From Tepidanaerobacter syntrophicus (GTDB lineage: Bacteria > Bacillota > Thermosediminibacteria > Thermosediminibacterales > Tepidanaerobacteraceae), in the NCBI RefSeq assembly GCF_001485475.2, contig NZ_DF977001.1, forward strand, positions 310,001-374,000: 64,000 bases of DNA, read 5' to 3'. Both the position numbers and the translations under genes were made by a program. The notes beneath the pieces were generated by a model. That model saw only the letters and a program-made list of their open reading frames with translations, was not told the DNA's origin and did no database searches. Every line of letters starts with the position of its first letter. Position 1 is the first letter of the stretch. Positions 17,942 through 32,394 of the stretch are shown piece after piece.

Positions 17942-18333
17942 AAATCCTGCTCCCTTAGCATGAGAAACTAAAATGTCTTATTGGTTATATCCAAAATGCT
18001 AAATTGTTTTTTAAAAATTATCTAATTAACATTATAACATTTACCACAATATAGCACAAATAATATCTTTTTGCCTTATCTGTGCTATAAACTTCTAAGG
18101 TAAGTTATGAGATCGGCCGCCATTAGGTTTCATAAATTCCTGCCATTTTCAATATACAAATTAAAAACACGAACCTTGAATAATTGTTTTTTGTAATTTG
18201 GCATTTATTATATAGCTGTTTTTGCCATATAACATCTCCTCCTTGTAGGTCTTTGTGTCAAATGTTATAATTTAAGAAAACTTTTCCCGAATATAATATT
18301 GAGGCTAAATAAATTAGGAATGGAGTGGATTTT
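17942..18333. other. Divergent intergenic region between levR-type gene and pfk
   Basis: This 392-base AT-rich spacer separates two divergent genes. I see no RNA gene or coding fragment. The pfk-proximal end holds a plausible promoter (18243-18271). A possible -24-like TGGCA on the minus strand near 18220 lacks a correctly spaced -12 and was not called. Confidence 0.5.
18243..18271 (+). promoter_or_regulatory. Candidate sigma-A promoter for pfk
   Basis: TTGTAG (18243-18248) and TATAAT (18266-18271) are separated by 17 bases, about 60 bases before the pfk start. The -10 is perfect and the -35 weak. Confidence 0.45.
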
Positions 18334-19518
18334 TTGAAAAAGAACCTTGCCTTTGCCCAGTCAGGAGGACCTACTTCGGTCATAAATGCTAGCTGCTACG
18401 GTATTATTAAGGAAGCTTTAAAATATGGTATTAAGATTTATGGAGCAAAGTTCGGCATAGAAGGCATATTAAACGATAACCTTGCAGAAGTAACAAATAT
18501 CAGCGAAAACGATTTAAATCTTTTAAGGTATTCTCCTTCGGCAGCTTTTGGCTCTTGTCGTCATAAATTGAAAGACGAAGACTTTGAGAAAATATGTTCA
18601 ATCTTAGATAAACATAATATAGGCTATTTTATTTACATAGGCGGCAATGATTCAATGGATACAGCTCACAGGTTATCCGAACATATGAAAAAAACATGTA
18701 GAGATATAAAGGTCATCGGTGTTCCAAAGACCATAGACAATGACTTGGTAAATACTCATTTTTGTCCGGGCTACGGAAGTGCTGCAAAGTACATTGCGTC
18801 AAGCGTAAGGGAGATGGCTCTTGATGCAGAGGTTTATGCAAAAGACATTGTTACAATTGTTGAGGTAATGGGAAGGGACAGTGGATTTTTGGCGGCTTCC
18901 AGCGCTTTAGCCCGCGATAATGTTGTAAATTCTCCCCATTTAATATATTTTCCAGAAATGTCTTTTGATGAAAAGGAATTTTTGGACGATGTTAAGACAG
19001 TTTTTAAGGATAACCATGGCAAAGTGTTTATAGTAGCTTCTGAAGGACTTAAAAACAAAAACGGCAATTATATCTATTTAAAAGAACAAAAAGCTGATGC
19101 TTTCGGAAACATCCAAATGGGCGGAGTAGGCAGCTATATGAAGCAACTTGTAGCTGAGAATATATCAAAACGCGTCAAAGTTGTCGAGCTTTCAATTCTC
19201 CAAAGGTGCGCTGCCCATATAGCATCTCTTGCAGATAATGAAGCAGCTGTTATGGTAGGTAAAGAAGCCGTAGATAAATTAATGAAGGGCATTTGCGATG
19301 TTATGATATCCATAGAAAAAACAGATAGCATCTTTAGCGCCGGAGCAGTTCCTTTATCCGAGGTTGCAAACCGCACAAAATTCTTTCCCGACCAGTGGAT
19401 AGACAAGACGAATAGATGGGTTACCCGGGATGCCCTCGATTACATGCTGCCCCTTATTCAAGGCGAGGTAAAAGTTCCTTTTATAGAAGGGCTGCCAAAA
19501 TACATAAGATTTATATGA
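18334..19518 (+). CDS. 6-phosphofructokinase family protein, probably PPi-dependent type
   Basis: Cytoplasmic PfkA-family enzyme, 394 aa, phosphorylating fructose-6-phosphate. I chose the TTG at 18334 because GGAGTGG lies 6 bases upstream. Motifs: AQSGGPTSVINAS at the start, FIYIGGNDSMDTA, GVPKTIDNDL and EVMGRDSGFLAA. GGNDS replaces the GGDGS of ATP enzymes, which in this superfamily points to pyrophosphate as phosphoryl donor; that is inference. It is followed after 12 bases by a PRD regulator. A relic of a second copy lies at 32.4 kb. Confidence 0.9.
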   Translation: MKKNLAFAQSGGPTSVINASCYGIIKEALKYGIKIYGAKFGIEGILNDNLAEVTNISENDLNLLRYSPSAAFGSCRHKLKDEDFEKICSILDKHNIGYFIYIGGNDSMDTAHRLSEHMKKTCRDIKVIGVPKTIDNDLVNTHFCPGYGSAAKYIASSVREMALDAEVYAKDIVTIVEVMGRDSGFLAASSALARDNVVNSPHLIYFPEMSFDEKEFLDDVKTVFKDNHGKVFIVASEGLKNKNGNYIYLKEQKADAFGNIQMGGVGSYMKQLVAENISKRVKVVELSILQRCAAHIASLADNEAAVMVGKEAVDKLMKGICDVMISIEKTDSIFSAGAVPLSEVANRTKFFPDQWIDKTNRWVTRDALDYMLPLIQGEVKVPFIEGLPKYIRFI

Positions 19519-19530
19519 AGGAGAATTTGC

Positions 19531-21495
19531 TTGAGTAAACTTAATATATCTCCCCGCCAAAAATTCATACTGGAGATGTTATATAAGCAAGATCGCTGGG
19601 TAAAAGGTCCGGAAATCGCTATTGAAGCAGGTGTTTCTGCGCGGACTATAAGAAATGACATACAACAACTTAACGCAGAAATTGGCATTGACCCGCCTTT
19701 GATCATTTCTTCTAAGCGCGATGGCTACATTATCTCAGATCGCAAAAAAGCATTAGAGTTGCTAAAACAAATTGAGACGTTGCAGAATACTTTGCCGATT
19801 TATCCAGATGAACGAGCGAATTTTATCCTTAAAAGATTGCTATTTGAAAAGGCGGCAATTAATATATATGATTTAGCTGACGAGCTTATGGTAAGCGACT
19901 GTACTATCGAAAGTGATCTTGTAAAAGTTAGAAAAATTGTTGAGGAGTTTTCTTGTAACCTAAATCTTAAGAGAAACTCAGATAATATCTTTTTGGAGGG
20001 TTCCGAAGAAAGCAAAAGAAATTTGCTCAGTCAGTTGCTCTTTAAAGAGGCAGGCAATAACTTCCTAAACATATCAAAATATGATAGCTATTTCGAAGAT
20101 TTTAATATGTCCGCGATACAGGACATTGTTCTATCGGCAATTAGGAAGAACGATCTTGTAATAAATGAAATCGGCTTATTGAACCTAGTTATTCACATAG
20201 CTATTTCTCTTAGAAGAATTAAAAATAATTATTTTATCGAAGACTCTCCATACCTTGAAAGTTTTTTAAACACAAACGAATATAAATTGGCAAAAGACAT
20301 TGCTCAGGGGTTGTCTGAAAGATTCGGCATTAATTTCCCGAAAGAGGAAATTTTATATATTGGTTATATGATTTTAGGAAAGCGAATTTTAAAAAGCAAG
20401 AGCAGTAGCTTTCACTATTTAGAAAATGTTATTGAAACAAAATATATAGATATTACTCAAAAGCTAATTAAATCTGTCTATGATAACTTCGGAATAAATT
20501 TTTCAGAAGATGAAGATTTGCTTGTAGGTCTTGCTATGCACATAAAAGCTATGGACAGCAGAATTAAAAATAGTATTATTCTTAGAAATCCCATTTTAGA
20601 GGAACTAAAGCATAGATACCCATTTATTTTTGAGCTTGCAGTGTTTTTATCAAATGAATTCTACAAACTTACAAATATACAAATGAACGAAAACGAAATT
20701 GGCTTTTTTGCGCTTCATTTAGGAGCTGCGTTTGAACGCCTTAATCAAAAAACTGCATCAAAGAAAAAAGTTATCTTAATTTGCACCGAAAATCTAAGAG
20801 ATATCCTAAGTTCAAAGATAAATTCCGAATTCGGAAGCAAGCTTGAGATAATAGATGTTCTATCAATTGTAGAATATAATATGGCAAAGGATATGAAACC
20901 TGATTTTATTATAAGCACAGCAGATTTACAAAATCATTTTGACGTACCTGTAATTTTTATTTCCCCATTTCTTGATAAAAAAGATATTCAAGAAATTAAT
21001 AAACAGTTGAGCTTTTTTGAAATTGTTATGAATGTAAGGGCAGTTGTAAGCAGAATAGATCGTGCTATAGTCGAAGAGTTATTTTTTCCGGATTTAGATA
21101 TAGATGACAGCTTCGAAATCATTAAGTTTATGGCAAATAACCTGTATGAAAAAGGCTATGTTCCGCCAACATATTTTGATTCTGTCGTAGAAAGAGAGTC
21201 TCTTTCTCCCACATCTTTTGGCAATATGGTGGCTTTACCTCATGCTTTAGTGATGAACGCCTATAAGACCGCAATATCTGTTGCAATTCTTAAAAAACCT
21301 ATCGACTGGGGCGATTATAAAGTTCAGATTGTTTTTATGTTCGCTATCAACGAATCTGATGTAAAAAGCCTCCAGAGCCTGTACAAATACCTCATGCAGA
21401 TCTTAGATGACCCTTACGCCGTAAGCCGGCTAATCAAGGCGAAAAAATTTGATGAATTTAAAGGAATAATACTTGACTACTATGGAACGCAATAA
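19531..21495 (+). CDS. BglG/MtlR-like PRD transcriptional regulator with EIIA domain
   Basis: Cytoplasmic regulator, 654 aa, starting at TTG 19531 behind AAGGAG. Order: HTH_11 (RQKFILEMLYKQDRWVKGPEIAIEAGVSARTIRNDIQQL), a second Mga-like HTH (YDLADELMVSDCTIESDLVKVRKIV), two PRDs (LVIHIAISLRRIKNNYF and LAMHIKAMDSRIKN), an EIIB-like region, and a C-terminal EIIA-2 domain with active-site text SFGNMVALPHAL. Such proteins activate PTS genes according to phosphorylation state. It forms a unit with pfk and faces the DUF43xx cluster. Its target is unknown. Confidence 0.9.
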   Translation: MSKLNISPRQKFILEMLYKQDRWVKGPEIAIEAGVSARTIRNDIQQLNAEIGIDPPLIISSKRDGYIISDRKKALELLKQIETLQNTLPIYPDERANFILKRLLFEKAAINIYDLADELMVSDCTIESDLVKVRKIVEEFSCNLNLKRNSDNIFLEGSEESKRNLLSQLLFKEAGNNFLNISKYDSYFEDFNMSAIQDIVLSAIRKNDLVINEIGLLNLVIHIAISLRRIKNNYFIEDSPYLESFLNTNEYKLAKDIAQGLSERFGINFPKEEILYIGYMILGKRILKSKSSSFHYLENVIETKYIDITQKLIKSVYDNFGINFSEDEDLLVGLAMHIKAMDSRIKNSIILRNPILEELKHRYPFIFELAVFLSNEFYKLTNIQMNENEIGFFALHLGAAFERLNQKTASKKKVILICTENLRDILSSKINSEFGSKLEIIDVLSIVEYNMAKDMKPDFIISTADLQNHFDVPVIFISPFLDKKDIQEINKQLSFFEIVMNVRAVVSRIDRAIVEELFFPDLDIDDSFEIIKFMANNLYEKGYVPPTYFDSVVERESLSPTSFGNMVALPHALVMNAYKTAISVAILKKPIDWGDYKVQIVFMFAINESDVKSLQSLYKYLMQILDDPYAVSRLIKAKKFDEFKGIILDYYGTQ

Positions 21496-21559: not shown

Positions 21560-22294
21560 CTACACTATCTTTGATAATATTTCAAATATCTTCTTTACGC
21601 TTTCTGATTTTGTTTTGCCGGTTTCTTTTTCGACAATGAAACTGTATATATGGGGCATGACTTTCTTGCATCCTGCATCAAGACATGCTTTTACTATTGC
21701 CTCTATGTTATCTTCATTTATACCGCCTGTAGGTTCAAATATGTCAATTCCCGCTTTGCTTGCAGCTTTGGCCATAGCAATCATATGATTTAGCTTTTCT
21801 GTTCCATGCATGGGGAAAAACTTTACAGAATCAATTTTTGCTTCTTTTATCATAGCGGCAGCAGTAGAAACATCGACTAACGTTTCGATGTTCTTTTCGC
21901 TTAAAGGCCCAGTGGATATCACGACTTTTCCTATTTCATCAGATGGCTTTACCAATGCATTTACTATCGTGCCGGTATATCCTGTCGCCGTCAAAAAGCC
22001 TTTTGCGTATCCGGCTGTAGGATATGTCTGGTTTACATGATCCGGATTTGTCGCTTTTGCAATCTCTAAACACCTTTCCCACTGGGATGCGCTGCCGTCG
22101 CCAAGTCCGACTGAAATCGCGCTGTATTTTTTAAATTCATTAGCTACTTTAATGGCATCTTCAATTTTGGCATAATGTTGCGCCATTATGCCTACGGCCA
22201 TATATCCATTTGCAATCTTGTTTAATTCAATAAGGTTGTCTGCGTCATGTGCTAATATATTTATAGCAATGCGATCTTTGTAAAATTTAAGCAT
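21560..22294 (-). CDS. dgaF: 2-dehydro-3-deoxy-6-phosphogluconate aldolase, DgaF family (KDGP_aldolase)
   Basis: Cytoplasmic aldolase, 244 aa, splitting KDPG to pyruvate and glyceraldehyde-3-phosphate. It matches the DgaF/EF_0839 family by NILAHDADNLIELNKIANGYMAVGIMAQHYA, VGLGDGSASQWERC, DHVNQTYPTAGYAKGFL and KFFPMHGTEKL with GIDIFEPTGGINEDN. It overlaps dgaE by 8 bases and is the last gene of the cluster. In Salmonella DgaE and DgaF together degrade D-glucosaminate-6-phosphate. Confidence 0.91.
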   Translation of the reverse strand: MLKFYKDRIAINILAHDADNLIELNKIANGYMAVGIMAQHYAKIEDAIKVANEFKKYSAISVGLGDGSASQWERCLEIAKATNPDHVNQTYPTAGYAKGFLTATGYTGTIVNALVKPSDEIGKVVISTGPLSEKNIETLVDVSTAAAMIKEAKIDSVKFFPMHGTEKLNHMIAMAKAASKAGIDIFEPTGGINEDNIEAIVKACLDAGCKKVMPHIYSFIVEKETGKTKSESVKKIFEILSKIV

Positions 22295-23405
22295 TAGTTA
22301 TTCCCTCCAGTATTTCATGCAATCTGTCAGCTATTATTTCATCATCTTTTTCTTTTAAATTTCTTGGGTCGATACTTATTATTCCTAAGTTTGCATAGTG
22401 GTCTCTGACATATATTGATGGATTGCCGCATTTAAGTTTTTCTATAATTTCATATGCAGTAATTTTAGCCGCTTTTTCATCGATCTTTATTTCGGCCCTG
22501 TATATTTCTCGTCCGGCTTCATCTTGTTTTATGCTAACATTTATGTTTTTTAGGTCGGCTAAGTTTTGTGCAAGTTTTTCCATCTTTTGCTTGTTTTCTA
22601 AAGCAATGGCATGATTATCCTCGTTTACGTATAGCTCTATAGCTTTTAAAAGTCCCATTATGCTTTCTTTGCTGGCTTTCATCGCTCTGCCGATACCTTT
22701 GTACTGTTTTTTGCACCAACTGATAAGTTCTCTTTTTCCGCATATAAAGCCGGAAGTCGGACCGCCGATTGCCTTACCTCCGCTATATATTACAAGATCG
22801 GCTCCTTGTTGATAGTATTTTTTAATGTCTTCTTCTGCGGCTGCATCTACAATAAGGGGAAGATTGTGCCTATGAGCTATGTCCGCCATGGCTTGAAATG
22901 AAACCATGCCTTTTTGAACGGTATGATGAGATTTGATAAACAGCAGTGCCGCTGTTTTTTCATTAATCGCGCCTTCTATGTGGAAAGACTCTGTTTTGTT
23001 TGCCTGTCCCACTTCTATAGGTCTTCCGCCGCCCAGTGATACCATTTGGACTATGGGAGCTCCAAAGTTTACGCTGTGTCCTTTTTGAATGATGATCTCG
23101 TTTTGCATGCCTTCGCTGTTTGGCAATTGTTCTGCTAATTTCATGTTTCCTTTTGTGATGCATGCAGCAACGCTAATCGCTATACCAGCCGCAGCTCCCA
23201 AAGTGACGCAGGCATCTTCGGCTTGTGTATATGATGATATGATTTCTCCGGCTTTGTCGATTAATGAATCTATCTCAACGTACTCTTGGGCAGCCTGCGC
23301 CATGTATTCGGCAACTTCCTTTTTCACGGCGCTTGCTCCAAGCGCCGTCATTTTACCGCTTGCATTAATTACTTTCTTTAAACCTAAACTTTCATAAATT
23401 GTCAT
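22287..23405 (-). CDS. dgaE: D-glucosaminate-6-phosphate ammonia-lyase, DgaE family (SelA-like PLP enzyme)
   Basis: Cytoplasmic PLP enzyme, 372 aa, fold type I of the SelA superfamily. The Schiff-base Lys lies in LVIYSGGKAIGGPTSGFICG, preceded by LIVDAAAEED (the Asp that pairs with the pyridine nitrogen). The N-terminus GLKKVINASGKMTALGASAV is typical of the family. DgaE deaminates and dehydrates glucosaminate-6-phosphate to KDPG; this fits the aldolase gene it overlaps. The actual substrate here could be another 2-amino-sugar acid phosphate. Confidence 0.88.
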   Translation of the reverse strand: MTIYESLGLKKVINASGKMTALGASAVKKEVAEYMAQAAQEYVEIDSLIDKAGEIISSYTQAEDACVTLGAAAGIAISVAACITKGNMKLAEQLPNSEGMQNEIIIQKGHSVNFGAPIVQMVSLGGGRPIEVGQANKTESFHIEGAINEKTAALLFIKSHHTVQKGMVSFQAMADIAHRHNLPLIVDAAAEEDIKKYYQQGADLVIYSGGKAIGGPTSGFICGKRELISWCKKQYKGIGRAMKASKESIMGLLKAIELYVNEDNHAIALENKQKMEKLAQNLADLKNINVSIKQDEAGREIYRAEIKIDEKAAKITAYEIIEKLKCGNPSIYVRDHYANLGIISIDPRNLKEKDDEIIADRLHEILEGITNA

Positions 23406-23471
23406 TTACTTTAAGCACCTTACTTTCAACTGTTTAAGATAAAAATATATTTTGCTTGCCCTCCCAGAAGC

Positions 23472-24128
23472 TTATGCTACCGGAACCGGAAACACTATTC
23501 CTAATATCATAGCTCCTAAAATTGCGCCGCCGGCTATCGGTCTATCATATTTATAAAAAAGAGCTGCGCCGACAAAAGCTCCTATGCCTGCCGGAATACT
23601 ATATTGAATGGCTGATAAAATAACAAGCGGGCCTAAGAATCTTCCGGAAGCATTACCTGCTCCCATCATTACGTCGGTTCCAAAAGAAGTGGTAGTTTCA
23701 GGCATAATTTTCCTTATAGCCATTATAATTATTCCTAATACTATACCGATTCCCGCACCTGTAAGAAGAGATAAGCTAAAATTGTATATAGGGGCTTTAA
23801 TGCCGGATGCCATAAGCATGGCAGGTATTCCAATCCCGACTCCTGTCATAATCGAACCACCAATATCTAAGACTCCAACCAGCGGACCTTCCAAAATTCT
23901 CGCTAGAAGGAAGCCACCTGCAAAACCAGCCGCGGCAGCAAAATCTCCGGTTTTTAATCCTTCATCAAACATTTGAACTACAAAAATTTCATTGAACGCC
24001 CCTACATGATACATCACAAACATATGCGTGCCGGCAAAAACTGCGGCACAAGCAAGTGCGGTAATCACGGGAAAAGCAAGGGGGCTCATTAAAAAGCTTT
24101 TTGAGTTTATCGTTTTCTTCTCTTCCAT
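23472..24128 (-). CDS. DUF4310 family membrane protein
   Basis: Integral membrane protein, 218 aa, matching the family of Enterococcus EF_0832/EF_0833-type proteins. Several glycine-rich hydrophobic segments (FAAAAGFAGGFLLARILEGPLVGVLDIGGSIMTGVGIGIPAMLMASG, LTGAGIGIVLGIIIMAI, GRFLGPLVILSAIQYSIPAGIGAFVGAALFYKYDRPIAGGAILGAMILG) suggest 6-7 spans. The architecture recalls PTS-type or carrier membrane subunits, but no transport function is established. It is always found with DUF4311, DUF4312 and the SFCGS protein in the clusters I know. Confidence 0.85.
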   Translation of the reverse strand: MEEKKTINSKSFLMSPLAFPVITALACAAVFAGTHMFVMYHVGAFNEIFVVQMFDEGLKTGDFAAAAGFAGGFLLARILEGPLVGVLDIGGSIMTGVGIGIPAMLMASGIKAPIYNFSLSLLTGAGIGIVLGIIIMAIRKIMPETTTSFGTDVMMGAGNASGRFLGPLVILSAIQYSIPAGIGAFVGAALFYKYDRPIAGGAILGAMILGIVFPVPVA

Positions 24129-24176
24129 TATAAATCCTCCATTCTTTCTAAAGTATTTTATTAATGCAAAACAATC

Positions 24177-24896
24177 TTAAAAAAACTTTAAAAGATTAGC
24201 ATAAAATCCACGGAAATACGCAATAACCGCAAACAGCGCAATAACTATTAGTAATAATGCCCAGTTAGAACTTTGGTTTTCATTTTCTTCAAAAGATTTG
24301 CCGATTAAGATGCCAAGCACAACGCCGGGCACAGCATTGCCCATTATCATATGCGCTAATCCACCAAATATAGTTCCGAAAATCCCGGTAGTTTTACCTG
24401 CATCAAGTGCAGCAATCCAAAATATTATCGGCATTACAGGATTTATCATTAAATTTGATGCAGGTCCTAATATCTTTTGGGCAACCATCGACATAGATTC
24501 TGGAATGGCAGATGCAATGGTATTCAAAAACGTCACTACAACGGCGCCTACTATGCTACCGCTAATTGCCATGGCAGTAGGATTATACATGGTCTCTTCC
24601 GCTTTTGGATTTTTAAGCAGCAGTAGAGCTTCTGCCCAGTTTGGCACTACTCTGTGCAGCACATCTTGCGTCAAGGCGCCTGCTCCGACAACAGAAGCTG
24701 CAGAGTTAAAAAGAAAACCAAGACCAAAAGAAAAATGCGTAATCGGATCTCCTTTGCATGCGTTAAGTTCTCCGATGGTTCGGAACGACCCCATAGACTG
24801 AACTTCCGGAGCAAAGAACATTCTTGCAGCGCCAGCTGATACCGCAGCGCCAGCCAAAGCTCCGATTATGATTGATTTAATAATAATGACTAACAT
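24177..24896 (-). CDS. DUF4311 family membrane protein
   Basis: Integral membrane protein, 239 aa, with about 6 hydrophobic segments. Conserved-looking blocks are IIGALAGAAVSAGAARMFFAPEVQSMGSFRTIGELNACKGDPITHFSFGLGFLFNSAA and GNAVPGVVLGILIGKSFEENENQSSNWALLLIVIALFAVIAYFRGFYANL. It is the presumed partner of the DUF4310 protein. The charged FEENEN loop just before the last span could contact the cytoplasmic subunits. Function unknown; transport is inferred from context. Confidence 0.86.
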   Translation of the reverse strand: MLVIIIKSIIIGALAGAAVSAGAARMFFAPEVQSMGSFRTIGELNACKGDPITHFSFGLGFLFNSAASVVGAGALTQDVLHRVVPNWAEALLLLKNPKAEETMYNPTAMAISGSIVGAVVVTFLNTIASAIPESMSMVAQKILGPASNLMINPVMPIIFWIAALDAGKTTGIFGTIFGGLAHMIMGNAVPGVVLGILIGKSFEENENQSSNWALLLIVIALFAVIAYFRGFYANLLKFF

Positions 24897-24921
24897 GGCT
24901 TGGAACCTCCTTTATTTTTAG

Positions 24922-25296
24922 TTATAGACTATTTTCTTGAAGGCGATTAATTAACCTTTTCTTACCATCTCGAATTACCTCAACACTATCTTCTTTGTAA
25001 TCTATATATCTAATCCGAACTTGAATAGTTGATTTAACTAGATATTCCCTTTTTATCTTTGGCATAAAAACCCAAAGAAATTTTTCTTCCCTTTCTTTTA
25101 TTGTCATTTTGTCAATGCGAAATGCTTCGGGTTCCATAAATACAATACACCCATCTATTGATGCATATACTTCTTTTCTTAGATTTGTAAAGGCGTTTTG
25201 AATCGCAAGAGTTTCGCTTTTGCCTCTTCCCGAGATATTAAACTCTTTTACTATTTCTTTTAACTGATTTTCACTTTTTGCCTTTAGATTTTCCAT
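24922..25296 (-). CDS. DUF4312 family cytoplasmic protein
   Basis: Soluble protein, 124 aa from the ATG at 25296 (GGGAAAG upstream), overlapping the SFCGS gene by 26 bases. It has an alpha-beta look: LKEIVKEFNISGRGKSETLAIQNAFTNLRKEVYASIDGCIVFMEPEAFRI, then EEKFLWVFMPKIKREYLVKSTIQVRIRYIDYKED. There is no signal or membrane segment and no known active site. It could be a phosphocarrier-like or regulatory subunit of the membrane pair; no function is established. Confidence 0.84.
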   Translation of the reverse strand: MENLKAKSENQLKEIVKEFNISGRGKSETLAIQNAFTNLRKEVYASIDGCIVFMEPEAFRIDKMTIKEREEKFLWVFMPKIKREYLVKSTIQVRIRYIDYKEDSVEVIRDGKKRLINRLQENSL

Positions 25297-25678
25297 TTTC
25301 TTTCCCTTCTTGAAGAATTTTCTTATATTCTTCAACAATTCTAAAACCAAGTTCTTCTACATCCATAAAGCCAAATCCTAATACTCTGGCTCCCTCTCTT
25401 AATGCAGTTATGCCTGCGTCTATCGACCTTAAATGATGAGCAACCTTGTAGCCATATTTGTTCGCCGCCACAAGAGCTCCTGCGCCTCCACTGCCGCAAA
25501 ACGATAACCCTATGTCAGCATTTTTTTCATGCATAACATCAGCCAACTTCATATCCGCTGCCATCCCTGGGATTACGTATGCTTCTGCGCCTGCCTTTTC
25601 AACTCCCTTTGCCACCTTCTGGCCCTTCCCGAGCCTGTCTCCTATAACTACCAAAATCTTTTTCTCATTATCACTCAT
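25271..25678 (-). CDS. Glycine-rich SFCGS family protein
   Basis: Soluble protein, 135 aa, named for its SFCGS motif, here IGLSFCGSGGAGALVAANKYGYKV. The start KKILVVIGDRLGKGQKVAKGVEKAGAEAYVIPGMAADMKLADVMHEKNADIG has a Rossmann-like alternation. The single Cys in a Gly-rich loop is reminiscent of the phosphocysteine of some PTS EIIB domains, an analogy only. Its start overlaps the end of the PRD protein by 4 bases. Confidence 0.87.
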   Translation of the reverse strand: MSDNEKKILVVIGDRLGKGQKVAKGVEKAGAEAYVIPGMAADMKLADVMHEKNADIGLSFCGSGGAGALVAANKYGYKVAHHLRSIDAGITALREGARVLGFGFMDVEELGFRIVEEYKKILQEGKENGKSKGKK

Positions 25679-26070
25679 AATTTTCCCTCCTCTAAGCTAT
25701 TTATTTCACTTTTATTTTGTTCCTCTTTAGCGGCTCCGATATGTGTAGCAATTAAAATTACTTCTCGCTCGTCAACATCTAAGTTATACTTGCTGAAAAT
25801 AGGCTCTGCTGACTTTAGTGCTATGTCCATTATCTTGCCGTCAAGCTGCGACTTAACTGCGCTTAAATCCATCTCCGGTAAGTATTCTCCTGCTTTTAGT
25901 CTTCTTATCAGACTTATATAATGAGCAGCGACTGCTATTTTTCTAGATTCACTAAAATGAATACCCTCTTTTTGTGATTCGCTTATTAATCTTTCCATAA
26001 ATGACTTTAACTCTGAGATTTCCTCTGTATTTAGCTGCATTTCTTTTTGCACAACTGACATGTAGTCCAT
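25675..26070 (-). CDS. Stand-alone PRD-domain protein (EF_0829-like)
   Basis: Cytoplasmic protein, 131 aa, made of one PTS regulation domain: IAVAAHYISLIRRLKAGEYLP and the second conserved histidine region REVILIATHIGAAKEEQ. PRDs are normally phosphorylated on His by HPr or EIIB and are normally part of antiterminators or activators; here no DNA- or RNA-binding part is attached. In similar clusters this small PRD gene always precedes the SFCGS gene. It may act as a phosphorylation-sensing subunit. Confidence 0.86.
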   Translation of the reverse strand: MDYMSVVQKEMQLNTEEISELKSFMERLISESQKEGIHFSESRKIAVAAHYISLIRRLKAGEYLPEMDLSAVKSQLDGKIMDIALKSAEPIFSKYNLDVDEREVILIATHIGAAKEEQNKSEINSLEEGKL

Positions 26071-26071
26071 T

Positions 26072-27202
26072 TTACTCTCCTTCTGTATTAATTAATTCTT
26101 CTCCTGTAATTAAATATCTCGGAACAAGTTTGAAATTGCTTTTCATTTTATTTCCATCTGAATCTATAAGCAAATATTGTTCATCAATTTTTTGCATAAC
26201 CGTAATTTCCGCCTTGTAGCCTGTTTCTATAGGTTGATTTTCTATGCCCAGTATTGTCCTTGGATTTATTGTCGCCAATGTTACGACTTCACCTAGGCTA
26301 AGACCCAAATTTACAAGCTTAGTCAATGTAGTAGTTAGGCTGTACACAGGACCATTAATATTTTGATTGTATATATCGGTGCCGGCTGTATAGGGTTTTA
26401 TATCCAGGCTAAAAGCTTTTTGCGCAACCTTAAAATTAAAACTAGATGTTCCGTGGCCTACGTCAAATAAGACTCCTCTTTCATATGCATCTAAAGCCTC
26501 TTTTAATACTGTACCATCCGGGTTGAAAAGACCGCCCTGCTTGCCATGATAAATATGGGTTACAATATCTCCCTTGTCTAGCAGATTCAGAACATCCTTA
26601 AGCTCCGGCGGAGCATTTCCAATATGCACCATTAAAGGTAGTTCCATCTCTTTAGCAAATTCTTTAGCAATTTTTACGGGACCAATTCCTAAATTGCCTA
26701 CTACGCTGGCACTTGCTCTTACTTTTATCCCCTTGATAACTTCTCTATTATTTAAGATAACTTTTTTATTAGCTTCAATATCGATATTGTTATAATCTGA
26801 AAGCTCTCCCGTTCCCTTCTTAAGTCCATCTTTGGCAATGTTTAAAAATTCATATACTTTCGTTCTGCTTTTGCAAATTACATTCTTTTTAAAGTCTTCA
26901 AAGGTATATGCCCCTGCGCTGCCGGCATCTACCAAAATACCCACGCCCATATTTACTCCTACTGTGTCCGGCAATACCCCAAGAGGTGTTACGTCAGGAA
27001 AGACATGGGTATGCATATCTACTAGAGAAGGTGTTACTATTATATTCTTGTCTTCGATCACGAACGACGCATTTTCTTTATAAATATCATGATCTATTTT
27101 TGAAATTTTACCATTTTCGATTAAGATATCGCCATTAAAGTCAGCGCATTTCATTGGGTCAATTATCCTTGCATTTTTTATAACTAAAGTTTGGGCTTTC
27201 AC
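26072..27202 (-). CDS. Amidohydrolase/deacetylase-family metalloenzyme (EF_0837/AHA_3915-like)
   Basis: Cytoplasmic dihydroorotase-like amidohydrolase, 376 aa. Metal-site candidates: VDMHTHVF (HxH), IKVRASASVVGNLGI (carboxylated Lys), VHIGNAPPE, THIYHGKQGG and the late YTAGTDIYNQNINGPVYSL (Asp). The C-terminus has TINPRTILGIENQPIETGYKAEITVM. The family is annotated as a deacetylase or amidohydrolase of unknown substrate. Sitting in one operon with DgaE, it could remove an N-acyl group before the ammonia-lyase step. Its start overlaps the end of the PRD regulator gene. Confidence 0.86.
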   Translation of the reverse strand: MKAQTLVIKNARIIDPMKCADFNGDILIENGKISKIDHDIYKENASFVIEDKNIIVTPSLVDMHTHVFPDVTPLGVLPDTVGVNMGVGILVDAGSAGAYTFEDFKKNVICKSRTKVYEFLNIAKDGLKKGTGELSDYNNIDIEANKKVILNNREVIKGIKVRASASVVGNLGIGPVKIAKEFAKEMELPLMVHIGNAPPELKDVLNLLDKGDIVTHIYHGKQGGLFNPDGTVLKEALDAYERGVLFDVGHGTSSFNFKVAQKAFSLDIKPYTAGTDIYNQNINGPVYSLTTTLTKLVNLGLSLGEVVTLATINPRTILGIENQPIETGYKAEITVMQKIDEQYLLIDSDGNKMKSNFKLVPRYLITGEELINTEGE

Positions 27203-29112
27203 TTCGTCACATCCTCACTATTTAAACTCATATATGCTTTTATTGCTAAAATATCCTCATCCATTATGGTAAAGGGATACTTTTTACACAAATCTTTCAT
27301 TTCTTCATATATAACGGAATCGACCTCTGATTTATCATTTGTCAATTTAAATGACTGCCCTTTAAAAAGGTCCTTCTCTTTAGAACTTAAAGAAAGTCTC
27401 AAAGCTAAGTGAATAATTAGCCCTAAATAAGTTTCATTGCTCATTTTGATTGCAAGTTTATTTTTAAGCCTATCAACGAAACATGCTAGATCGGAAATTA
27501 TGCTTATAAATGCCGGGATCTCTTCTTTGTTTGCTATTTTTAAATTATTGGCCGATCTTTTACTTTGAAACTTGCTGGTTTCCACATTTAAAACATTGTA
27601 TATGCGAACCATATCAGTTTCTGATACAAATGGGCTTACGGAAATGACCGGAAAATTATCGTTCTTAAAATTAACTGTAGAAATAATTGCATCTACTTCA
27701 GGATCATTTAATGACTCGGCTTCAGACATCGAAATCGTTCCCTTGACTACTATATCGGGAAATTTATTTTTGAGGTTTGCTACAAGTAACTGGGCTCCTC
27801 CTAAACCGGTGGGACATACTGCGTATACTTTTTTTGTCTGTGTTCCCTTTGCCCTTTCTATGGCAGCTCCCAGATACATCATAATGTAGCTTATTTCATC
27901 ATCATCTAAGGAATATCCGGTATCTTTTTCAAAAACCTCAGCCATTATTTTGGCGGTTGAATATAGCTGTGCATATTTTTCTAAAACAATATCTTTGAGA
28001 GGGTTTTTTTCCTCCATTCCCAGCATTAGCCTGTTGTATGTGGCAGATAAATGAAGATTTAATCCTTTAGATAGTTCTTCATCATTCGAAAGGTCCATCC
28101 CCAAGATGCTGCCGGCTGTCTCTATCATAGTAGCAACACAATTATTTAACGACGGATTTAATTCCTCTTTATAGCTCTGATTAATTTTTCCGCTTAAAAG
28201 ATGTAATGTTATATATCCTACTTCAGCTTCAGGAATAGCAACTTCATATTCTTTCTCTATTTTTTTGCTCAAAAGTTTCGATATCTCATATTCAGGATTT
28301 TGCTTTAGGAAATTTAGTTTCTGCTCATCAATAGTTATATTAAAACCATCTTTAATCCTTTTTACCGCCATTGCTATATGGACTACTAATGCCAAAAAAG
28401 CACTATCGGTAAACCTGTAACCTAAGGCCTTTTGCGATTCATTCACGAAGATTTTTATAGGTTCTAAGTTGATATTAGACAAATAGGTGGAAAAAAGGTC
28501 TATAACAATATTGTCTCCTGGTTTTTTCATTGTATTTGCATAATTATTATTTATTTCTAGAAGACTTAACATTTGCGATTCATCGAGATTTTCTGTAAGA
28601 AAGCTTATGATAGCCTCTCTTTTATTATCTTCATCTCCTTCTAACGCCACACCTTTTTTCTGTGTCCTGACAACATCCAGGTCAAACCTTTTAAACCAAT
28701 TTTCAACATCATTTAAATCATTATAAAAGGTGGTTCTGCTAATACCGGTACGGGAGCATATATCGCTTATGGTAACAGTATCGCTTTCTTTTAAAAGAAT
28801 ACTTATAATTGCTTTCACTCGTTCTTCTTTCGATAACGGAGTTATATATGGCTTAAAATCAGAGAGTTCATTTTTGATTTTACAAATAGTTTCTTGATCG
28901 TTTTTCTCCCTATTTACCCAGATACCCGTACCTGGCTTAATACATAATTCCAGCCCCTTACTGGAAATCCACTCTCTAATGTCCTGCAAATCATTATATA
29001 TAGTTCTCTTGCTCACTTTATACTTATTAGCCAACTCTTCTGCCGTATACATCTGATTTTCTTCATTTAAAAATTCATACAGAATATGGCGCTGTCTCTC
29101 TGATAAATCCAT
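27199..29112 (-). CDS. BglG-family PRD transcriptional regulator of the DUF43xx cluster
   Basis: Cytoplasmic regulator, 637 aa from the ATG at 29112, behind AAAGGTGAT. Order: HTH (LSERQRHILYEFLNEENQMYTAEELANKYKVSKRTIYNDLQDI), second HTH (TVTISDICSRTGISRTTFYNDLNDV), PRD1 (ALVVHIAMAVKRIKDG), PRD2 (LNLHLSATYNRLMLG), an EIIB-like domain with a Cys (VYAVCPTGLGGAQLLVANL), and a C-terminal partial PRD-like region (GLIIHLALRLSLSSKE). There is no EIIA-2 domain. It is the first gene of the minus-strand cluster and should control it, and perhaps the divergent PTS operon. Confidence 0.88.
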   Translation of the reverse strand: MDLSERQRHILYEFLNEENQMYTAEELANKYKVSKRTIYNDLQDIREWISSKGLELCIKPGTGIWVNREKNDQETICKIKNELSDFKPYITPLSKEERVKAIISILLKESDTVTISDICSRTGISRTTFYNDLNDVENWFKRFDLDVVRTQKKGVALEGDEDNKREAIISFLTENLDESQMLSLLEINNNYANTMKKPGDNIVIDLFSTYLSNINLEPIKIFVNESQKALGYRFTDSAFLALVVHIAMAVKRIKDGFNITIDEQKLNFLKQNPEYEISKLLSKKIEKEYEVAIPEAEVGYITLHLLSGKINQSYKEELNPSLNNCVATMIETAGSILGMDLSNDEELSKGLNLHLSATYNRLMLGMEEKNPLKDIVLEKYAQLYSTAKIMAEVFEKDTGYSLDDDEISYIMMYLGAAIERAKGTQTKKVYAVCPTGLGGAQLLVANLKNKFPDIVVKGTISMSEAESLNDPEVDAIISTVNFKNDNFPVISVSPFVSETDMVRIYNVLNVETSKFQSKRSANNLKIANKEEIPAFISIISDLACFVDRLKNKLAIKMSNETYLGLIIHLALRLSLSSKEKDLFKGQSFKLTNDKSEVDSVIYEEMKDLCKKYPFTIMDEDILAIKAYMSLNSEDVTK

Positions 29113-29370: not shown

Positions 29371-29415
29371 AGTTTTAGAAGCATCAAATTAAAATAATGT
29401 AGAAAGGTGGCAGTC

Positions 29416-29751
29416 ATGCAAAACATAGAAGAAGTTTCTGTTAAAATTATTGCTTCCGCCGGAGATGCCTTAGCGCAGATGGTGCAGGCTTTAGATGCCG
29501 CACGAGTAGGCGATTTTGAAAAAGCTGACAGCTTAATGCAGCAAGCAAGTCTTTCTATTACCGAAGCTCATAAAGTTCAAACGGGTCTTATTACTCAAGA
29601 AGCACAGGGCATTAAAAGTGAATATTCTATATTAATGGTTCATGCACAAGACCATCTGATGAATGCAATGCTTGCTCAAATATTAATTAAGGAAATGATA
29701 CAGCTTTATAGAAAGCTTGCAGAAGTTTCAAAAGGAGGCAAATTTAATTGA
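29416..29751 (+). CDS. PTS lactose/cellobiose-family EIIA component
   Basis: Cytoplasmic helical phosphocarrier, 111 aa from the ATG at 29416 (AGAAAGGTGG upstream). The family core is EEVSVKIIASAGDALAQMVQALDAARVGDFEKADSLMQQAS and the phosphorylation region VHAQDHLMNAML. It overlaps the next gene by 4 bases. Confidence 0.94.
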   Translation: MQNIEEVSVKIIASAGDALAQMVQALDAARVGDFEKADSLMQQASLSITEAHKVQTGLITQEAQGIKSEYSILMVHAQDHLMNAMLAQILIKEMIQLYRKLAEVSKGGKFN

Positions 29752-30701
29752 GCTTTGGAATAATTGCTACATGGCGCATGGCCCTTGAAGGCGTTGAAAA
29801 AGCTGCAAAAATGCTGAAAGACGGTTCAAGCGCAGGTGATGCATTAGAAAATGCTATAATGGCGGTTGAAGATTATCCCTTTTATAAGTCAGTAGGTTAC
29901 GGCGGATTGCCCAATGAAAACGGCGAAGTGGAACTGGATGCAGCTTTTATGGATGGAGATACTTTATCTATCGGTGCAGTTGGAGGAATTCGCGACTTTA
30001 AAAATCCCATTAGCATTGCCCGCCATCTTAGTCGAGAAAGATTTAATATCTTTTTAGTTGGCATTGGCGCTGAAGAATATGCTCATAAAAACGGTTTTGA
30101 AAGAAAAAACATGTTAACAGAACGTGCCAAAAAGATCTGGGACAAACGAATTAGGGAAATAAGAGAACAGAACCTTAGCCCGTACGATGGTCACGATACA
30201 GTAGGTATGGTTTGTCTTGACAAAAATTCAAGTATGGCAGCAGGAACTTCTACCAGCGGTTTATTTATGAAAAAGCGGGGACGTGTAGGCGACTCGCCGT
30301 TATCAGGTTCGGGGTTTTATGTAGATTCACAAATCGGCGGAGCTGTTGCCACAGGTCTCGGGGAAGATATCATGAAAGGGTGCCTGTCTTATGAAACTGT
30401 AAAACTGATAGAAAGGGGTCTTAGTCCACAAGAAGCTGCAGAAAAGTCAGTATATGAGCTTACGCAAAAATTATTGCAAAGGAGGGGAAAATCCGGAGAA
30501 ATATCTGTTGTATGTATGGACAATAAGGGACGTTGGGGCGTCGGAACAAATGTAGAGTTTTCATTTGTTGTATCTTGCGAGGATGATAATGTTCCCAAGG
30601 TATACCTTGCAAATCCTCATGGCAGCAAAACCTTGTACTCTCAGGCCAGTCAACAATGGCTAGAAGAATACCTTAAAAGAATTACAAGCCCCATAGTGTA
30701 A
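29748..30701 (+). CDS. Glycosylasparaginase/isoaspartyl peptidase family Ntn-hydrolase (cytoplasmic)
   Basis: Self-cleaving N-terminal-nucleophile hydrolase, 317 aa, starting at TTG 29748 with AAAGGAGG upstream. The processing site and nucleophile Thr151 lie in YDGHDTVGMVCLD; RGRVGDSPLSGSGFYVD and GGAVATGLGEDIMKG are the substrate-side motifs. Family enzymes cleave GlcNAc-Asn or beta-aspartyl peptides. There is no signal peptide, unlike several bacterial homologues, so it acts on a cytoplasmic substrate. It lies between the PTS EIIA and EIIC genes, strongly suggesting that the PTS imports its substrate, perhaps phosphorylated GlcNAc-Asn. Confidence 0.9.
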   Translation: MSFGIIATWRMALEGVEKAAKMLKDGSSAGDALENAIMAVEDYPFYKSVGYGGLPNENGEVELDAAFMDGDTLSIGAVGGIRDFKNPISIARHLSRERFNIFLVGIGAEEYAHKNGFERKNMLTERAKKIWDKRIREIREQNLSPYDGHDTVGMVCLDKNSSMAAGTSTSGLFMKKRGRVGDSPLSGSGFYVDSQIGGAVATGLGEDIMKGCLSYETVKLIERGLSPQEAAEKSVYELTQKLLQRRGKSGEISVVCMDNKGRWGVGTNVEFSFVVSCEDDNVPKVYLANPHGSKTLYSQASQQWLEEYLKRITSPIV

Positions 30702-30734
30702 AAGTTAAAGCCAAAAAATGAAAGGAGATTTTAT

Positions 30735-32054
30735 ATGAATAAGGTACAGGATTTTCTTGAAAAGAAATTATTACCCTTTGCTGTAAAATTAGCAGGTCAA
30801 CGGCATTTAGCCGCTATTCGCGATGGATTTATTTCATTTATGCCCTTCTTAATCATAGGTTCTATATTCATTATTATTCAAGATTTTCCTGCTCCCGGAT
30901 GGCAAGAGCTGCAGACAAAGCTTTTTGGGCCGGGATTCAATCAGTTTATTATACTTCCAAAAAGAGTCACTTACGATATAATGTCAATATATATAGTCGC
31001 AGCAGTAGCATACAAGCTAGCCCAATCTTACAAAATTGATGCTTTCTCGGCATCCTTATTAGGAATTGCTTCATTTATACTTGTAACGCCTATTACTACG
31101 ACGATAGAAATTGATAATACAGTTCATACCGTAGAAAAGGTCATAACAGTTGGTGGCTGGTATGGAACCCAGGGGCTGTTAGTAGCACTTTTAGTTGCAA
31201 TTATATCCACTGAAATATTTAATTATTTTATCAAAAAGGGTATTATTATACGAATGCCTGAAGGTGTTCCGCCGGCAGTAAGCAGAGCTTTCTCAGCTCT
31301 TATTCCCGGATTTGCAGTAATCGTATTTATGTTGCTGGTTCGTCTTGCTTTCCTTCAGACGCCCTATGGTTATATTCATGATTTTATCTATAAAATTGTT
31401 GCTGCACCGATGACTGCTTTAGTAGCAAATAATCTTTTAGGGGCAGTTGGGACAGTTTTTGCTATTTCCCTCCTGTGGTGCATAGGTTTAAATGGCGGAG
31501 CAATTGTGAATGGCATTCTAAGACCATTCTGGGTGCCTTTGCAGGAAGCAAATTTGGCCGCAATTGAACAAGGCCTTCCTGTTCCAAACATCATTACAGA
31601 ACAGTTCTTTGATATGATTTGGATCGGAGGTGCCGGCGCTACTTTACCTGTAGTATTCCTGCTTATACTCAGAGCAAAATCAAAACAATATAAAGAACTT
31701 GGCAAATTATCTCTTGCACCTGGCTTGTTCAACATAAATGAACCTATAATGTTTGGTCTTCCTGTAGTTCTTAATCCAATAATGATGATACCCTTGATTT
31801 TGGGTCCTGTGACAATAACTATAGTAAATTATCTTGCGATGGCAGCCAACATTGTTGCAAGGCCTACAGGTGTCATTCTTCCGTGGACTACACCGCCGAT
31901 AATTCAAGGCTTCCTTATTACAGGTCACTGGACTGGGGCAGTGCTTCAACTTGTAGATATATTAATTGTCGGAGCAATCTGGTGGCCGTTTATAGCGATG
32001 GCAGACAAGCAAAGATACGAGGAGGAGCAAGCGCAGGCACAAATCGAGGAGTAA
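30735..32054 (+). CDS. PTS lactose/cellobiose-family EIIC permease
   Basis: Integral membrane sugar carrier, 439 aa, with about 10 hydrophobic segments. Motifs: ADFISFMPFLIIGS-like start (AAIRDGFISFMPFLIIGSIF), GGWYGTQGLLVALLVAIIS, MPEGVPPAVSRAFSALIPG, GLNGGAIVNGILRPFWVPL and the substrate-site NINEPIMFGLPVVLNP. AAAGGAG precedes the ATG. It works with the EIIA and EIIB of the same operon. Confidence 0.95.
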   Translation: MNKVQDFLEKKLLPFAVKLAGQRHLAAIRDGFISFMPFLIIGSIFIIIQDFPAPGWQELQTKLFGPGFNQFIILPKRVTYDIMSIYIVAAVAYKLAQSYKIDAFSASLLGIASFILVTPITTTIEIDNTVHTVEKVITVGGWYGTQGLLVALLVAIISTEIFNYFIKKGIIIRMPEGVPPAVSRAFSALIPGFAVIVFMLLVRLAFLQTPYGYIHDFIYKIVAAPMTALVANNLLGAVGTVFAISLLWCIGLNGGAIVNGILRPFWVPLQEANLAAIEQGLPVPNIITEQFFDMIWIGGAGATLPVVFLLILRAKSKQYKELGKLSLAPGLFNINEPIMFGLPVVLNPIMMIPLILGPVTITIVNYLAMAANIVARPTGVILPWTTPPIIQGFLITGHWTGAVLQLVDILIVGAIWWPFIAMADKQRYEEEQAQAQIEE

Positions 32055-32085
32055 AACTACTTTTGTAAGTTCGGAGGAAAAAACT

Positions 32086-32394
32086 ATGAAAATATATCTT
32101 GTATGTTATGCGGGCATGTCCACTAGTTTGCTGCTTACGCGGATGGAAAAAGTTGCAAAAGAACAAAATTTAGATGTAGACATTCAGGCAGTTGCGGCAA
32201 CACAGATTCACGAAGCATTAGAGGATGCAGATGTTATACTTTTAGGCCCTCAGGCTCGATACCTTTTGAAAGATGTTCAAGAAATTGCATCGAAGAAGGG
32301 AGTGCCAGTAGAAGTTATAGATTCTGTAACTTATGGGACCATGAATGGTGCAAAGGTTCTTGATATGGCTTTAAATCTTATAAAGAAAAAATAG
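32086..32394 (+). CDS. PTS lactose/cellobiose-family EIIB component
   Basis: Cytoplasmic phosphocarrier, 102 aa. The phosphocysteine is Cys7 in MKIYLVCYAGMSTSLLLTRME; DADVILLGPQARYLLKDVQEIA is the conserved middle. GGAGG lies upstream. It is the last intact gene of the operon; a decayed pfk fragment follows at once. Confidence 0.95.
   Translation: MKIYLVCYAGMSTSLLLTRMEKVAKEQNLDVDIQAVAATQIHEALEDADVILLGPQARYLLKDVQEIASKKGVPVEVIDSVTYGTMNGAKVLDMALNLIKKK

Follow-up and report, generated by a model that had tools for sequence, protein, structure and literature searches.

A conserved five-gene block in Tepidanaerobacter syntrophicus as a possible phosphotransferase-dependent uptake system assembled from unrelated parts

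The Salmonella DgaABCD enzyme II, of the mannose family of the phosphoenolpyruvate-dependent phosphotransferase system (PTS), makes D-glucosaminate-6-phosphate for the enzymes DgaE and DgaF (PMC9529869), and the marine ong pathway degrades free N-acetyl-D-glucosaminate (GlcNAc1A) by means of a solute:sodium symporter (SSS) and a late 2-keto-3-deoxygluconate (KDG) kinase (PMC9537276, PMC12017989). Here we analyse an operon of Tepidanaerobacter syntrophicus, comprising nine genes on the minus strand at 21560-29112 of a 64,000-nt window (the whole stretch of DNA analysed, whose positions we use as coordinates; Table 1). As in the dga operon, a putative transporter is encoded alongside the same two enzymes, which require a 6-phosphorylated amino-aldonate; unlike it, the operon contains five unrelated proteins instead of a classical mannose-family enzyme II, and an additional amidohydrolase. 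With the ong pathway it shares a predicted deacetylase, a pyridoxal phosphate (PLP)-dependent deaminase and an endpoint at KDG-6-phosphate, but it has the five proteins in place of the symporter and the KDG kinase, and OngB is a D-aminoacylase-type enzyme.

An earlier note, made from the sequence alone, had suggested that the unnamed proteins of the operon form a PTS-like transporter. We tentatively propose, giving it somewhat less than an even chance, that an N-acyl-amino-aldonate is taken up by the five-gene block PRD-SFCGS-DUF4312-DUF4311-DUF4310, which would depend on the PTS and act like an enzyme II but consist of non-PTS parts. From gene content, conservation of the block, protein families, folds, residue conservation, gene fusions, co-occurrence with Enzyme I and the lack of a kinase in most clusters, we infer transport, each phosphotransfer step, the roles of single subunits and the substrate. 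The operon would import and degrade an N-acylated 2-amino-2-deoxy-aldonic acid, such as GlcNAc1A or a close relative. In the proposed relay, Enzyme I and HPr would donate phosphate to an invariant His of the lone PRD protein (EIIA-like role), which would hand it on to Cys61 of SFCGS, an RpiB-like protein (EIIB-like role); the final acceptor would be the substrate, which the DUF4311/DUF4310 pair carries (EIIC-like role), with the dodecin-fold DUF4312 protein as a possible structural or gating subunit. The amidohydrolase would then remove the N-acyl group, DgaE would eliminate ammonia, and DgaF would split the resulting KDG-6-phosphate into pyruvate and glyceraldehyde-3-phosphate.

When one genome per species was scanned, at least 498 SFCGS relatives were retrieved; of these, the best 80 loci, from Bacillota and Enterobacterales with a few others, were studied. 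The block is invariant, and its gene order is kept in essentially all intact loci, which excludes an operon assembled by chance; the four families whose co-occurrence the earlier note had proposed to survey indeed travel together. The genes are arranged as block-amidohydrolase-DgaE-DgaF-regulator in 42 loci and as regulator-amidohydrolase-block-DgaE-DgaF in 17, the remaining loci being truncated, fused or minor gene-order variants, and in two enterococcal genomes (L077 and L117) the block stands without the enzymes, which are encoded elsewhere. Because its placement varies relative to the enzymes, the block behaves as a unit that includes the PRD protein. The idea that the unnamed proteins form one unit in the place of a transporter therefore holds, but this unit comprises five genes, and not the four first supposed. 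Several genes of the clusters of Pantoea stewartii and 'Ca. Pantoea haifensis' (L074 and L064) are broken by frame breaks, due to either decay or assembly error.

The only His-bearing candidate of the block is the lone PRD protein (PF00874), which in Pfam matched no EIIA family. His50 is present in 82 of 82 sequences and His110 in 81 of 82. In L114 the PRD protein forms a fusion with SFCGS, in L024, L028 and L032 one with the amidohydrolase, and in L018 one with both (amidohydrolase-PRD-SFCGS). The SFCGS protein of the window has, as previously noticed, a single Cys; this residue, Cys61, is kept in 85 of 85 sequences, within a CG[ST]G loop (Cys61-Gly62-Ser63-Gly64) that is equally invariant, and none of the EIIB models in NCBIfam or Pfam matched the protein. 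The conservation of Cys61 and of the PRD His residues agrees with the earlier proposal of the SFCGS Cys and the lone PRD as candidate phosphosites; conserved Cys61 is in itself no proof of that status, because the equivalent Cys of the RpiB/LacAB superfamily is a catalytic residue.

A parallel arrangement is found in the yhf operon of Escherichia coli K-12, yhfZ-yhfY-yhfX-yhfW-php-yhfU-yhfT-yhfS (L091, 6936-14345), which encodes a lone PRD (YhfY), a small, Cys-bearing, RpiB-like protein related to SFCGS (YhfU, DUF2620) and a polytopic membrane protein (YhfT), together with a phosphotriesterase-family hydrolase and a PLP enzyme, in a setting comparable to that of the amidohydrolase and DgaE. 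Eleven Bacillota yhf operons contain YhfY, YhfU and YhfT, with the three adjacent in most of them. Comparisons of hidden Markov models (HMMs) indicate that the lone PRD is homologous to YhfY and SFCGS to YhfU, and the candidate residues are retained in all sequences (YhfU Cys52, 13/13; YhfY His48, 13/13). Unlike the block, the yhf operon lacks DUF4312 and has different enzymes, and YhfT showed no sequence relation to DUF4310 or DUF4311 in hhalign comparisons, where the possibility that DUF4311 and DUF4310 are the split halves of YhfT obtained a probability below 1%. The common pattern of a PRD, a Cys protein and a membrane protein suggests a shared mode of working. An apparent YhfU-YhfT fusion in L093 and L104 (a frame of 575 amino acids) is no more than an open frame extending far upstream of the start codon.

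In the genomes sampled, both systems occur together with Enzyme I. In a phylum sample of 398 genomes, Enzyme I (PF05524) was present in 157 overall, in all seven with SFCGS (hypergeometric p 0.0014), in all 11 with YhfU (p 3e-5) and in all 17 carriers of either system, belonging to 12 families (p 8e-8), in a test that ignores relatedness between species. As a control, 63 of 95 carriers of the unrelated gluconate permease GntP (strong matches) contain Enzyme I, against 17 of 17 (p 0.003). The genome of the window carries both HPr and Enzyme I. In its possible division into His-bearing, Cys-bearing and membrane parts, and in the presence of Enzyme I in carrier genomes, the block resembles the enzyme II complexes of the PTS.

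A kinase-sized gap between cluster genes was not found in the 80 loci, except for gaps between DgaF and the regulator and for L089. The scan of cluster flanks, which covered only kinases of the PfkB type, identified a KDG-kinase-like PfkB gene beside DgaF solely in three enterococcal clusters (Table 1), which also contain a Lac/Cel-family EIIC and a MupG-like phosphoglycosidase. It is possible that these clusters serve a route of their own, for a disaccharide with a terminal amino-aldonate, from which intracellular hydrolysis could release the free aldonate. A kinase that occurs only beside a separate EIIC route is the pattern expected if the block delivers a phosphorylated substrate. With respect to this substrate, the amidohydrolase belongs to a group that includes EF_0837 (PDB 2ics). 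The cog3964 enzymes that have been studied work on R-configured acids, at their N-acetyl or O-acetyl groups, a preference that would fit an N-acyl-D-aminoaldonate. Additionally, a lactonase-type beta-propeller that appears to carry a signal peptide is encoded in the gap separating DgaF from the regulator in five enterobacterial clusters (L071, L079, L081, L086 and L087), which points to an aldonate derived from a lactone. The deacylation of an N-acyl aldonate that was originally attributed to the amidohydrolase fits both its family and the linked lactonases.

In the window, the genes for DUF4311 and DUF4310 share a reading frame and lie 48 nt apart; they were modelled as a single chain in which the TAA between them was read as Gln, an artificial linker that implies no readthrough. 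From an alignment of 44 rows, including 21 others joined likewise, AlphaFold2 produced a model with a mean predicted local distance difference test score (pLDDT) of 82 and a predicted template modelling score of 0.81. This model was unmatched in the PDB (Foldseek, best E 0.19; VIA, best Z 4.8 over 54 residues), and the Pfam matches of the pair were restricted to the DUF4310 and DUF4311 families. A relation to the EIIC-GAT family (UlaA/GatC) was considered and dropped, because hhalign against a small EIIC-GAT profile was silent and UlaA reached a VIA Z of only 2.9 over 44 residues, an absence that does not exclude such a relation. The comparison with PTS folds that the earlier note had proposed thus detected neither an EIIC-GAT likeness nor, in the PDB, a structural match outside the PTS. 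The order of helices is similar in the two halves of the model; the halves could not be superposed, and a sequence signal that would make DUF4310 and DUF4311 paralogues is absent. Invariant charged and polar residues are numerous, among them R25, R39, E43, D50, H54, D78, H81, R82 and D165 of DUF4311 and R77, E80 and D88 of DUF4310.

The AlphaFold2 model of DUF4312 (pLDDT 87, about 97 in the core) is a beta-alpha-beta-beta structure for which the 18 top entries in VIA-align were all dodecins or dodecin-like flavoproteins (Z 7.3-8.1, 60-72 residues), followed by lower entries that include SHS2-type proteins, such as Rpb7 and FtsA. Since Foldseek alone returned nothing significant, the fold call rests on VIA-align and its uniform top list. 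DUF4312 is therefore predicted to have a dodecin/SHS2 fold, covering the full length of dodecins, and the model shows no EIIA or EIIB fold; the likeness to dodecins has no counterpart in a sequence-family match.

Several observations weigh against a PTS-dependent uptake system. No part of the block matched a known EIIA, EIIB or EIIC family, and the membrane pair has neither a detectable EIIC-GAT relation nor a match in the PDB. PRDs are familiar mainly as targets of regulation by the PTS, and they are also present in the cluster regulator, so that the co-occurrence with Enzyme I, which was evaluated in 17 genomes from 12 families ignoring species relatedness, could reflect regulation only. The alignment of the SFCGS Cys with the catalytic Cys of RpiB offers another possible cause for its conservation, and a kinase might be encoded elsewhere in the genome. 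Moreover, the substrate is uncertain, because both enzymes score below their NCBIfam equivalog cut-offs (DgaE, 461 of 600 bits for NF047797; DgaF, 284.5 of 300 for NF047796); they are above those of the broader TIGR01437 and TIGR03581, respectively. All in all, the PTS-like transporter of the earlier note is backed by the conserved unit, the invariant residues, the constant presence of Enzyme I in the sample and the lack of a cluster kinase except where there is another entry route, but not by EIIA or EIIB folds or by a detectable relation to the EIIC family tested.

The main alternative, which we consider less likely, is that the membrane pair is an ordinary secondary transporter under PTS regulation, where the PRD protein would be a PTS-controlled switch (for inducer exclusion or activation) and SFCGS a ligand-binding gate or sensor. 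The substrate would then be phosphorylated by a kinase encoded elsewhere, or stay unphosphorylated up to KDG, as in the ong pathway for GlcNAc1A, which combines an SSS symporter with a late KDG kinase (PMC9537276, PMC12017989). PRDs being classical regulatory domains, PTS control would equally give a co-occurrence with Enzyme I, and the undetected EIIC relation of DUF4310/4311 agrees with this possibility. A regulatory PRD, however, would need neither a place within the block in essentially every intact locus nor fusions to an enzyme and to SFCGS; both candidate residues are retained in the YhfY-YhfU-YhfT parallel, and a cluster kinase was found only in the three enterococcal cases, each with a separate EIIC route.

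It also appears improbable that SFCGS is an RpiB-type catabolic enzyme, an isomerase or epimerase of a phosphorylated intermediate, leaving transport to DUF4311/DUF4310 (with DUF4312) alone. Judged by its sequence, SFCGS is a divergent relative of RpiB/LacAB, and of YhfU, that retains the reactive Cys loop: it matches the RpiB-type model TIGR02133 (Table 1), scores 20.5 bits with PF02502, below the Pfam gathering cut-off of 24.7, and a profile of six members retrieved RpiB/LacB chains in 11 of 12 matches to the PDB, all weak (best E 0.056). In a clean test with separate family sets and 12,304 open frames (E-values scaled to a million), the SFCGS HMM matched, beyond its own family, only YhfU (11 proteins, best 0.0017) and RpiB (13, best 0.03), and the YhfU HMM matched 84 SFCGS proteins (best 0.002), its only other matches being two frames at E >30. 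This homology, together with the retained catalytic Cys and loop, would favour an enzymatic role, but the RpiB motif H[ND]xAN occurs in 0 of 85 SFCGS versus 24 of 32 RpiB sequences, and an isomerase is unnecessary in an amino-aldonate pathway. Unlike those of RpiB/LacAB isomerases, the SFCGS gene is part of a transport-type block and remains beside the membrane genes even when the enzymes are elsewhere, and in most yhf operons the neighbour of its relative YhfU is another membrane protein. A separate RpiB is encoded in the genome of the window.

As previously noted, there is no classical EIIA, EIIB or EIIC within the cluster; what the earlier note omitted is a Lac/Cel PTS operon, divergent from and adjoining the regulator gene (29407-32394, plus strand), which encodes EIIA, an Asparaginase_2 hydrolase (beta-aspartyl-peptidase/aspartylglucosaminidase-type), EIIC and EIIB, and which may import an asparagine-linked sugar. 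It is very improbable that the phosphorylated substrate comes from this complete enzyme II, whose EIIC resembles that of the enterococcal DgaEF clusters, and that the block serves some other purpose, such as export or sensing, because a similar EIIC lies near the cluster in just one of 80 loci and the hydrolase suggests a different substrate.

Returning to the PTS-dependent uptake system, the block could, with still less confidence, represent a second and independently evolved kind of PTS enzyme II, with a PRD for EIIA, an isomerase-derived, RpiB-like protein for EIIB, a structurally unmatched membrane pair for EIIC and an additional dodecin-fold subunit, of which YhfY-YhfU-YhfT would be a second member. 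To our knowledge, the PTS is the only system for which group translocation of sugars is established; if the proposal is true, the chemistry of group translocation, in a transporter with unrelated parts, arose more than once. The substrate class, acylated amino-aldonates, includes products of the oxidative cleavage of chitin, and we found no phosphorylating uptake route for it described in the literature. The proposal gives one testable role to four protein families without an assigned function that are found together in hundreds of loci, those of Klebsiella, Pantoea and Enterococcus among them, and the link to YhfY-YhfU-YhfT makes it testable in E. coli K-12.

The cluster itself is no new discovery, because its proteins are conserved hypotheticals already grouped in NCBIfam and Pfam (EF_0829 to EF_0839/AHA_3910 to AHA_3917); a function of DUF4310, DUF4311, DUF4312, SFCGS or DUF2620 was not found described in the open-access literature. 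New here are the relatedness of SFCGS, the predicted fold of DUF4312, the unmatched model of the membrane pair, the His residues and fusions of the PRD protein, the yhf triad, the co-occurrence with Enzyme I and the enterococcal kinase pattern. The window proteins exceed the curated NCBIfam cut-offs for EF_0830, EF_0832, EF_0833 and EF_0839 and miss those for EF_0829 (17.6 of 69 bits), EF_0831 (50 of 90) and EF_0837 (336 of 432). Matches to Pfam and NCBIfam-type models agree with the family first assigned to each of the nine genes, which are co-directional as described; to call them mostly overlapping is slightly too strong, as overlaps occur at four of eight junctions (DgaF/DgaE, DUF4312/SFCGS, SFCGS/PRD and amidohydrolase/regulator) and the remaining gaps are of up to 67 nt. 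The start codon of DUF4312 is most likely the ATG at 25296. Scans for promoters and terminators yielded sites no commoner than in shuffled sequences.

Table 1. Genes of the operon (window positions) and features of related loci (positions within each locus)
Feature	Position	Strand	Evidence
HTH-Mga-PRD transcriptional regulator (AcpB/EbpR/MafR-like)	27199..29112	-	Pfam PRD E 1e-41, HTH_11, Mga; NF053736 107 bits, below cut-off of 130
Amidohydrolase, EF_0837/cog3964-like group, predicted N-acyl-amino-aldonate deacylase	26072..27202	-	PRK09237 E 4e-119; PDB relatives 8wzy, 2ogj, 2ics
Lone PRD protein, block gene 1	25675..26070	-	PF00874 E 2e-10
SFCGS protein, RpiB/LacAB/YhfU superfamily, single Cys61	25271..25678	-	PF14272 E 2e-57; TIGR02133 E 2e-5; PF02502 E 5e-4
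DUF4312 protein, predicted dodecin/SHS2 fold	24922..25296	-	PF14189 E 8e-19; AlphaFold2 model
DUF4311 polytopic membrane protein	24177..24896	-	PF14188 E 2e-107; AlphaFold2 model of linked pair
DUF4310 polytopic membrane protein	23472..24128	-	PF14187 E 9e-96; AlphaFold2 model of linked pair
DgaE-type PLP-dependent ammonia lyase	22287..23405	-	TIGR01437 E 3e-149, above cut-off
DgaF-type 2-keto-3-deoxy-6-phosphogluconate aldolase	21560..22294	-	PF07071 E 4e-69; TIGR03581 above cut-off; PDB 3lm7
Enterococcal clusters: EIIC, small membrane protein, MupG-like, amidohydrolase, DgaE, DgaF, PfkB	L159 2204-8878; L160 2424-9106; L089 12299-19158		
Lactonase PF10282	L079 15206-16423; L071 15243-16403; L081 15265-16569		Pfam on three

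By Pfam, both enterococcal regulators that were scanned lack an EIIA_2 domain, and the 25 best listed matches of the window regulator include none. The regulator of the enterobacterial cluster, as seen in Klebsiella pneumoniae (L079, 16434-18356), combines a PRD with an EIIA_2 domain. Convergent with the operon, the plus strand of the window at 18325-21495 encodes a phosphofructokinase-family protein and then another PRD regulator, which has an EIIA_2 domain.

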